This document shows, piece by piece, positions 9,468 to 33,441 of a stretch of 33,506 nucleotides of DNA. Position numbers and translations under genes: made by a program. The notes under the pieces are model-generated. The model searched no databases, was not told where the DNA came from, and saw only the letters and a list, made by a program, of their open reading frames with translations. Each line of letters opens with the position of its first letter. Position 1 is the first letter of the stretch. This DNA comes from Alcaligenaceae bacterium. GTDB lineage: Bacteria; Pseudomonadota; Gammaproteobacteria; Burkholderiales; Burkholderiaceae_B. Location: the NCBI GenBank assembly GCA_013205565.1, contig JABMMM010000328.1, positions 1 through 33,506 on the forward strand, read 5' to 3'.

Positions 9468-9494
9468 TGAACTTACAAACCTTAGCTATTAAGC

Positions 9495-9620
9495 TCAGGG
9501 ACGGCCACCCGTAGGAAACGGCCACGAGGCTGCAGGATTCAGGGCTGTCTTAGCACCTGGTGCAGCTGCGGTCGAAGGGGCAGCGGCTGCCGGCTTTTTA
9601 GCGGCTGGCTTTTTAACTAT
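9495..9620 (-). other. out-of-frame C-terminal continuation of the histone H1-like gene (-1 frame)
   Basis: If the reading frame slips back one base at the A tract 9620-9629, translation avoids the TAG at 9617-9619 and continues for 41 codons to TGA at 9495. The encoded tail first continues the same Lys/Ala/Pro repeat style (VKKPAAKKPAAAAPS). It then changes to a unique end, TALNPAASWPFPTGGRP, which looks like the real C-terminus of betaproteobacterial histone H1-like proteins; this comparison is from memory. The compositional continuity and the terminator directly after it argue that this is part of the gene. It may be reached by programmed or transcriptional slippage, be switched by tract length, or be disconnected by a sequencing error or recent mutation. 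Confidence 0.8.
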
Positions 9621-9901
9621 TTTTTTTTTGCTGCTGGCTTTTTTGCTGCTGCTTTTTTAGGAGCGGCTTTTTTAGCGACTTTCTTGACAGCCTTTTTTGC
9701 TACTTTTTTAACAGCTTTTTTTGCTGCTGGCTTTTTAGCTGCAGCTTTTTTAGCTGCGGGCTTCTTAGCCGCGACTTTCTTTACTGCCTTTTTAACGACT
9801 TTCTTAGCTGCGACTTTCTTGACTACCTTTTTGGCCGCTGGCTTTTTAGCTGCGGCTTTCTTGGCAGGGGCTTTCTTTGCTGCTTTTTTGGCTGTTGCCA
9901 T
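9617..9901 (-). CDS. histone H1-like lysine/alanine-rich DNA-binding protein (frame-0 product)
   Basis: Frame 0 encodes 94 residues, almost wholly imperfect repeats of Lys-Lys-Ala-Ala-Ala-Lys-Lys-Pro and Val-Lys-Lys-Val/Ala type, beginning MATAKKAAKKAPAKKAA. This composition matches the eukaryote-H1-tail-like nucleoid proteins of Bordetella (BpH1) and relatives, which bind DNA non-specifically and compact the nucleoid. The start at 9901 is supported by AAGGAG about 7 bases upstream; the frame is open 20 codons further but that leader is not of this composition. Frame 0 ends at a TAG immediately after ten consecutive A bases. The -1 frame continues to 9495 (see the separate entry), so the true gene is probably 9495-9901, about 135 residues. 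Confidence 0.85.
   Translation of the reverse strand: MATAKKAAKKAPAKKAAAKKPAAKKVVKKVAAKKVVKKAVKKVAAKKPAAKKAAAKKPAAKKAVKKVAKKAVKKVAKKAAPKKAAAKKPAAKKK
9620..9629 (-). repeat. homopolymer of ten A (minus strand) at the frame junction of the histone-like gene
   Basis: Ten T on the plus strand, ten A in the mRNA sense, directly before the frame-0 TAG. It contains the slippery heptamer A-AAA-AAA. Eleven or eight A would join the two reading frames at the DNA level. Such tracts are prone to polymerase slippage in replication and transcription, and to ribosomal -1 shifts. Confidence 0.95.
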
Positions 9902-9983
9902 GGTAATACTCCTTGGTTCAGGGTCCCAAACGTTAAACCCGTGCTTGACGCATCCCACCATGGGATTTTGTGTCGCCCGAGTT

Positions 9984-10041
9984 ATTCATCGGCACAAGCC
10001 GCTACCAGATTTCGGTAGCAAAGCGGTTTGTGCTAATGAAT
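9984..10041. repeat. imperfect inverted repeat / hairpin 1 downstream of nrdB
   Basis: Paired blocks are ATTCAT (9984-9989) with ATGAAT (10036-10041), GCACAA (9992-9997) with TTGTGC (10028-10033), and CCGCT (9999-10003) with AGCGG (10022-10026), plus ACC with GGT near the loop. Small bulges separate the blocks. No T-tract follows on either strand, so it is not a standard intrinsic terminator. It is the distal member of three consecutive hairpins after nrdB and lies upstream of the histone-like gene. Confidence 0.65.
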
Positions 10042-10050
10042 CCGGCACAG

Positions 10051-10096
10051 CCATTTGAACTGCCTCTCGCAATGAGGCGCGAACCAGTTCAAATGG
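10051..10096. repeat. 12-bp perfect inverted repeat / hairpin 2 downstream of nrdB
   Basis: CCATTTGAACTG (10051-10062) is the exact reverse complement of CAGTTCAAATGG (10085-10096). The stem can extend by GCCTC with GAGGC around a short loop, leaving a six-base bulge on one side. No T-tract follows. With its neighbours it probably forms the 3' end of the nrdAB transcript or protects it from exonucleases; that role is inferred. Confidence 0.75.
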
Positions 10097-10163: not shown

Positions 10164-11366
10164 TTATTCCCAGTTAAGGGCACCCCCGGTTTGGTATTCA
10201 ATGACGCGTGTTTCGAAAAAGTTACGTTCTTTCTTTAGATCAATCATTTCTGCCATCCACGGGAAGGGGTTCTCTTCTTGTGCGAACAGCGGTTCGATGC
10301 CGATTTGCTGGCAGCGACGATTAGCAATGAATCTAAGATATGACTTGAACATCGGTGCATTCAGACCCAGCACGCCGCGAGGCATGGTGTCTTCAGCATA
10401 GGCGTACTCAAGATCGACCGCTTTGGCAAAAAGCGCGCGAATTTCTTCGCGAAAAGCGGGGGTCCAAAGCTGGGGATTTTCGAGTTTGATGGTATTGATC
10501 AGATCAATACCAAAATTGCAGTGCATCGATTCATCACGCAGGATGTACATATACTGTTCTGCAGCACCCGTCATTTTATTTTGGCGACCGAGCGCAAGAA
10601 TTTGCGTAAACCCGACATAAAAGAACAGACCTTCCATCAGGCAAGCAAAAACAATCAGCGACTTCAGCAGTGTTTGATCGTTTTCAAGTGTGCCTGTCTT
10701 AAAGTGGGGGTCAGCAATCGCATCGATAAACGGAATCAGAAACTGATCTTTAGCCCGAATCGAGGGCACTTCGTTGTACGCATTGAAGATTTCTGATTCA
10801 TCTAAATCGAGGCTTTCAACGATATATTGATAAGCGTGCGTGTGAATGGCTTCTTCAAAGGCCTGGCGTAATAAAAACTGCCGGCATTCAGGAGCGGTGA
10901 TGTGGCGATAGGTGCCCAACACGATGTTGTTAGCAGCCAAAGAATCGGCCGTGACAAAAAAACCAAGATTGCGCTTGATGATGCGACGCTCGTCTTCGGT
11001 TAACCCTGTTGGGTTTTTCCAGAGGGCGATGTCACGAGACATATTGATCTCTTGGGGCATCCAGTGATTTGCGCAAGTGGCGATGTATTTCTCCCAGGCC
11101 CATTTGTATTTAAAGGGAACCAGTTGATTGACATCGGTCTGACCGTTAATGATGCGTTTGTCAGCAGCATTCACGCGGGTGGCGGCGTGAGCCTTCACGG
11201 GCACCTGTTTGAGGCCGAGCGTGGGCAAGGCAGCGTCACCAAAAACGCCGCTTGCAGCGCGAGAAGGCAAAGAGGCAGTCATCGCTTGTGCGAGGGCTGC
11301 GGGCATCAGACCAGCACCTGCGAGAGGTGTTGTCTGTGTAGTGGGTTCGTCGTTCCAGGTCAGCAT
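10164..11366 (-). CDS. nrdB: class Ia ribonucleoside-diphosphate reductase beta subunit
   Basis: NrdB carries the di-metal/tyrosyl radical cofactor that activates NrdA for aerobic conversion of ribonucleotides to deoxyribonucleotides. The 400-residue protein has all the expected ligands: Asp141 ([11 protein letters not shown]), Glu172 and His175 (EEAIHTHAY), Glu245 ([12 protein letters not shown]), and Glu279 and His282 (LRDESMH). The radical tyrosine is present at Tyr179, four residues after His175, so this is not a class Ic enzyme of the Chlamydia type, which has Phe there. The tail [10 protein letters not shown] is the NrdA-docking end. About 75 extra N-terminal residues compared with E. 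coli are Ala/Pro-rich. It starts 16 bases after nrdA, in one operon. Confidence 0.97.
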
Positions 11367-33350: not shown

Positions 33351-33441
33351 GGACAGGTGGCCGAGCGGTTGAAGGCGCACGCCTGGAAAGCGTGTATACG
33401 TTCATAGCGTATCGGGGGTTCGAATCCCCCTCTGTCCGCCA
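33351..33441 (+). tRNA. tRNA-Ser (anticodon GGA)
   Basis: The 91-base gene folds as a class II tRNA. The acceptor GGACAGG pairs with TCTGTCC (one G-U), followed by discriminator G and an encoded CCA. The D arm is GCCGAGCGGTTGAAGGC. The anticodon stem CACGC/GCGTG holds loop CTGGAAA, anticodon GGA. A long variable arm (TATACG...CGTATC) and the T arm GGGGGTTCGAATCCCCC complete it. GGA reads UCC and UCU serine codons. Confidence 0.97.

Follow-up and report, generated by a model that had tools for sequence, protein, structure and literature searches.

Two described bacterial systems lie close to the gene analysed here. In dnaX, a chromosomal A tract (A_AAA_AAG in Escherichia coli, nine A's in Thermus) is recoded to give products with two different C-termini, through slippage of the ribosome or of the polymerase depending on the species (relevant parts of PMC3711429). 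In tssM1 of Citrobacter rodentium, a poly-A run precedes a premature stop, and an added A gives full-length protein beside the truncated form; the polymerase slips at 20–25% on its A11 tract, and the parts of the paper dealing with the site report that no Shine-Dalgarno (SD) motif or structure was found there (PMC4256274). While tssM1 is a secretion gene with an A11 run, a stop 28 nt further on and an occurrence in few species, the present gene has an A9 or A10 run, a directly adjacent stop, a nucleoid protein as its predicted product and a distribution over two genera. In E. coli dnaX the shift leads to a shorter product, whereas here it would lead to a longer one, and the window's genus lacks the SD motif and the clear stem of E. 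coli dnaX.

With the family NF038053 (Burkholderiales histone H1-like DNA-binding protein) the gene shares a Lys/Ala/Pro repeat body and the C-terminal motif. Among the rows listed, NF038053 relatives outside the two genera are encoded in one open frame with few exceptions, whereas the gene in the window is broken. A literature search found no description of frameshifting for this gene; neither "histone" nor "Polynucleobacter" occurs in the main text of PMC3711429, the supplements or database of which may hold the cluster unnamed.

The locus and its protein family

The window, the whole 33,506-nucleotide stretch of DNA that was analysed, carries the gene on its minus strand. An ATG start (9901–9899) is preceded at a distance of 7 bases by an SD-like AAGGAG (9909–9914), and the frame-0 part (9617–9901) runs for 94 codons to a TAG stop (9617–9619) that directly follows an A10 tract (9620–9629; GCA AAA AAA AAA). 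The −1 frame reads ATA (from 9620) GTT AAA and continues for 41 codons (9495–9620), ending in WPFPTGGRP (...NPAASWPFPTGGRP) and a TGA stop (9497–9495). The final 41 codons of the gene are out of frame by −1 with what precedes them. A TAG right after ten A's with a 41-codon −1 tail was what a sequence-only reading had described; direct reading confirmed it, and most readable genes of the genus share it. The frame-0 part is the predicted short isoform, and the tail would form the C-terminus of a predicted long isoform of ~135 residues. The same reading had placed a strong terminator 28 bases after the TGA. In fold calculations, an intrinsic terminator hairpin at 9468–9443 (minus strand; 11 pairs, TTCG loop, T tract) is indeed strong, with −19.1 kcal/mol and a z score of −4.68, but it begins 26 bases 3' of the tail stop.

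The gene sits 3' of two ribonucleotide reductase genes identified by Pfam, its upstream neighbour being nrdB for the small chain (10164–11366, minus strand; PF00268), which we used as a tree marker. It lies next to the small-chain gene in 143 of the loci searched with this chain by tblastn, and in ORF maps of nine named loci, drawn from both lineages, the surroundings agree up to the ends of the loci. Opposite the Lys/Ala-rich body, a 124-residue open frame at 9684–10058 (plus strand) is probably a by-product of body composition. Elsewhere in the same genome, a second stretch (G000:C266:938-1127; L002) matches part of the gene body at 71% identity, and a tRNA-Ser with anticodon GGA lies at the end of the window (33351–33438, plus strand).

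We scored body and tail against NF038053 as separate pieces, not joined, so that both are read against a cut-off of 80 bits set for the whole protein. The body matches positions 2–108 of 195 with 23.4 bits and the tail positions 154–195 with 46.8 bits, both below this cut-off. Among in-frame relatives, L031 and L098 pass it (100.8 and 83.8 bits) and L041 falls below (65.7 bits). The window pieces do not reach the 40-bit cut-off of Pfam HC2 (PF07382), scoring 24.3 and 26.5 bits.

Distribution of the break and constraint on tail and tract

Genes were located via their tails, and tail-less genes are therefore absent from the sample; the match-free genomes left out amount to 3 of 32 in the window's genus (Zwartia, Jezberella, Sheuella) and 14 of 186 in Polynucleobacter. 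All gene counts and Fisher P values ignore kinship. The tail is present in 29 of the 32 genus genomes, the window's included. Four of these genes are cut by a contig end, and the 25 readable ones comprise 20 with A10-TAG, two with A9-G-TAG in the same register (22 shifted genes together) and three in frame. Shifted genes occur in isolates of Zwartia vadi, Zwartia panacis and Jezberella montanilacus; the gene of the Sheuella amnicola isolate is in frame. A sequencing or assembly error or a recent mutation, the plain alternative offered by the sequence-only reading, could be suspected from the homopolymer at the site and from the origin of the window in a bin of 337 contigs. However, other genus genomes, cultured isolates among them, have the same break, and its conservation in register across many species leads us to reject this explanation for the lineage and to regard it as extremely improbable for this bin.

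Two side observations concern the genus assemblies. The contigs L020, L021, L025 and L032 start just after the tract or inside the tail, as if the assembly had broken in a repeat-rich gene. Moreover, L059, L074, L111 (titled Bordetella parapertussis), L109 (Candidatus Methylopumilus) and L110 (Gammaproteobacteria) belong to genomes of the window's genus (G005, G006, G008, G012 and G009, respectively), and these public titles look wrong.

A pattern scan of named genomes, which required nine A's, was used for names and lists matches as a lower bound, returned many Polynucleobacter isolates with GCA AAA AAA AAG TAA followed by a −1-frame tail. The tail was found in 172 of 186 Polynucleobacter genomes. 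From the 172 matched genomes we took 110 genes, the 30 best-scoring and 80 chosen by hand, with the listed in-frame rows deliberately included; 108 were parsed, and L194 and L242, in which the tail motif is absent, were dropped. An equivalent break in the −1 register, mostly A9-G-TAA, is present in 91 of the 108. The remainder comprises six genes without a recognised start, two in another register, seven in frame and two that are cut. Five of the six genes without a recognised start have a tail frame of 40–55 residues, and L197 has a further break in the tail: in L080/L197 (Polynucleobacter aenigmaticus) the tail frame is itself broken again, with 28 residues open and one stop inside the match. 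L237 (G285) and L243 (G318), single tips on the nrdB tree, have one A fewer, need a shift in the opposite direction and may be recent lesions. In L203/L361 (G324) the stop follows A6-G, an A10 run lies ~20 nt upstream, and sister species are in frame. The Polynucleobacter arrangement and the in-frame revertants are additions to the earlier reading.

In the family of the window's genus, the tail was found in 193 of 268 genomes, and outside the genus the tail frame, among the matches listed, is at least 106 residues long except in G097, at a contig end. In the family of Polynucleobacter outside that genus, the tail frames among the matches listed are at least 146 residues long, with the exceptions of G538 (80 residues), G479 (74 residues), G609 (at a contig end) and one of two matches each in G782 (80 residues) and G708 (95 residues). 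An order-wide draw gave the tail in 64 of 399 genomes, with a tail frame below 72 residues only in the window genome, six genomes with Polynucleobacter coordinates, G841 (at a contig end) and G888. As candidates for further shifted genes, G841, G609 and G097 were rejected on their contig-end coordinates; in G888, a short gene, tail and start share a frame, and G538 seems to be built in the same way. A third shifted lineage, represented by the metagenome bin L048 and similar bins, was likewise rejected, as only L048 is shifted, at another A run, and nine others whose start is recognised have an in-frame gene of 117 residues.

On an nrdB tree of 118 rows, built from one gene with FastTree and with weak branches, the shifted state extends over most of each genus; in-frame species are nested within, and one in-frame species is basal in Polynucleobacter. 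A minimum of 12 state changes is needed if the two registers are counted apart. Since in-frame relatives lie between the lineages, the shifted state would require either two origins or one origin with several losses.

Within both genera the tail is clearly under purifying selection in the −1 frame, to judge by substitution patterns. The 20 genus tails gave pS 0.386, pN 0.038 and dN/dS 0.071, and 71 distinct Polynucleobacter tails pS 0.316, pN 0.099 and dN/dS 0.259. Over the last 16 codons dN/dS falls to 0 and 0.039, respectively; gene finding by tail lowers dN/dS somewhat, and most of all in these codons, because the search motif lies there. The tail could also be read as a peptide in its own right, translated when ribosomes re-initiate downstream of the stop. 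GTG or TTG codons do occur in the open tail frame upstream of the motif (2 of 20 genus and 67 of 91 Polynucleobacter genes), yet the tail frame has no ATG 5' of the motif in any of 111 genes and is fused to the body in in-frame relatives, leaving re-initiation scarcely credible.

The spelling of the junction sets it apart from the gene bodies. The junction Lys triplet reads AAA AAA AAR in 20 of 20 genus and 90 of 91 Polynucleobacter genes (110 of 111), and Lys triplets in the bodies are so spelt in 0 of 6 and 1 of 307 cases (1 of 313), where the longest A runs measure 5–7, with one of 10. Ahead of the tract, Ala is encoded by GCA in 19 of 19 genus and 71 of 78 Polynucleobacter genes, compared with shares of 29% and 13% among Ala codons before Lys in the bodies. 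The contrast with the bodies is needed to make per-site conservation of the tract telling, because near-fixed third positions also occur in 7 of 35 Polynucleobacter and 3 of 39 genus tail columns. The adjacent stop is TAG in all 20 genus genes, and TAA in 90 and TAG in one of the 91 Polynucleobacter genes. Run length is A8–A10 in 110 of 111 genes, with A8 in seven and A6 in the remaining one. As a check on homologues proposed in the earlier reading has borne out, both genera conserve the tail in the −1 frame and keep the A tract at the junction.

That reading had also suggested on/off switching by tract length. Such phase variation, in which replication slippage would alter the tract within populations, might be expected at A9–A10 runs, which are generally mutable, and both in-frame and shifted states occur in each genus. 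Against it, 111 of the 113 shifted genes whose start is recognised share the −1 register, the other direction being confined to the two single tips. Most differences at the tract, GCA/GCT and A10-T/A9-G-T among them, are substitutions rather than length changes, and in this comparison between species we did not find tract length to vary among close relatives, as in a phase-variable locus. Switching by tract length is thus disfavoured, and phase variation appears very unlikely.

By contrast, these comparisons lend good support to the other proposal of the sequence-only reading, that slippage at the A tract lets one gene yield two proteins. As break, tail and tract are all conserved, we suggest, with a probability of roughly 0.8, that the H1-like nucleoid protein is subject to conserved slippage recoding that yields a short and a tailed isoform. 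Most transcripts or ribosomes would stop at the TAG to give the Lys/Ala-rich 94-residue form, and a fraction would slip on the A tract to give the ~135-residue form with the conserved C-terminus of the family. That both proteins exist, and in what ratio, we infer from the sequences.

Polymerase or ribosome

Whichever machine slips, the sequence of the long protein is identical. For the A10-TAG of the window, we consider it slightly better than an even bet that RNA polymerase adding one A is the main step. Programmed transcriptional realignment has a threshold of more than ~7 A's at the frame transition according to the pertinent text of PMC3711429, and the tract of the window has ten. The A11 tract of tssM1 is a precedent for such polymerase slippage. 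The GCA codon lengthens the run beyond what a ribosomal heptamer needs, which we count for the polymerase, and 18 of 20 genus genes carry the A10-T form rather than A9-G with its A_AAA_AAG. The two otherwise directed genes, L237 and L243, would not be served by a single −1 ribosomal slip and could be served by polymerase slippage.

Slippage of the ribosome by −1, as an alternative to or partner of the polymerase, is given a chance a little below one half in the window. An in-phase heptamer (X_XXZ_ZZN) precedes the frame-0 stop in all 111 genes, as A_AAA_AAG or A_AAA_AAA (the latter in the window), and A_AAA_AAG is kept where the run shrinks to A8 (seven genes) or A6 (one gene). The uniform −1 direction in 111 of 113 shifted genes is a mark of ribosomal frameshifting according to Antonov et al. 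2013, where orthologues with both shift directions are a criterion for transcriptional realignment (PMC3711429, sections concerned). P. alcilacus has a single tRNA-Lys, with anticodon UUU (38 of 38 tRNA matches read), and Zwartia vadi has one UUU and no CUU among 30 ARAGORN calls, which derive from 36 matches, some hitting the same gene twice, the rest mostly long tRNAs. In the window's own genome, no tRNA-Lys was found among the 20 tRNAs named in 21 loci of an incomplete bin. In vitro, E. coli ribosomes have been seen to slide along runs of AAA codons (PMC9207662, in the part concerned); however, the relevant passages of PMC4363877 describe little sliding on A9 or A10 in vitro, and those E. 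coli heptamers that shift without stimulators reach 2.1–10 times a background of 0.055% (PMC4066793, relevant section).

An SD-like motif upstream of the site is found in 0 of 111 genes, which we count for the polymerase. All eight pairs of a stem that lies 3 nt downstream of the stop (6 nt from the heptamer) are present in 42 of the 91 Polynucleobacter genes, a point for the ribosome, but the stem is missing in the genus and in other Polynucleobacter groups; we keep it as a lead, the sole downstream structure retained as a candidate. The window has no clear structure downstream of the site (z −0.58), again a point for the polymerase; in the genus the downstream folds tend only weakly towards structure (mean z −1.47, 4 of 20 under −2), and the 23 of 91 Polynucleobacter genes sampled have a mean z of −1.21. 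In the genus, alignment folds near the site are weak, with z between −0.4 and −1.9 for windows whose start lies in columns 0–60; one Polynucleobacter window reaches z −4.4 but only −1.9 kcal/mol. With these points on both sides, −1 programmed ribosomal frameshifting on A_AAA_AAG or A_AAA_AAA as the main step, with mRNA of uniform length, is a tenable but less probable account. The ribosomal share is probably higher in Polynucleobacter, given its A_AAA_AAG motif.

Isoforms, revertants and possible roles

Slippage recoding likely provides a nucleoid protein in two isoforms, one of which lacks the conserved tail; what the short one is for is a separate question. In-frame species nested in both genera, several of which lack the tract, count against recoding, and because such revertants exist, some without a tract, the short form would be dispensable in some species. 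The break may then be a tolerated lesion, a one-base loss that became fixed while slippage made enough tailed protein, the short form itself serving no purpose. In agreement with this, the revertants L188 and L190–L193, for example, have no run of eight or more A's and should not make the short form. On the other hand, the shifted state persists in most of two genera despite synonymous divergence (pS 0.39 and 0.32), and the break is kept, and the stop beside the tract retained, although a one-base reversal is easy at such a tract. We rate a tolerated lesion a serious possibility at somewhat under even odds.

That selection maintains a recoding switch, at one and the same site of an orthologous gene in most of two betaproteobacterial genera, to set the isoform ratio is the more speculative and on balance unlikely reading; the ratio could then couple nucleoid packing to physiology. 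Slippage would give the long form from A9-G and A10-T genes and the short form from in-frame A10-G-TAG genes, in which the loss of one A would suffice, and evolution between the states may have swapped the default form rather than invented one. Polymerase speed, nucleotide pools or tRNA-Lys modification might govern the isoform ratio.

Bacteria of Polynucleobacter and its neighbours are common in fresh water. On the present sequence evidence, most of the species sampled would express a histone-like protein across a frame break, in a gene that would appear as a stub of ~60–130 residues after ordinary gene calling. If recoding is confirmed, a chromatin-type protein would join the recoded genes, and the runs of A6 to A10, followed by G or T, together with the in-frame revertants, would form a natural series for the gain and loss of slippage sites. 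The finding also makes it testable whether bacteria tune nucleoid composition via slippage of the polymerase or the ribosome.
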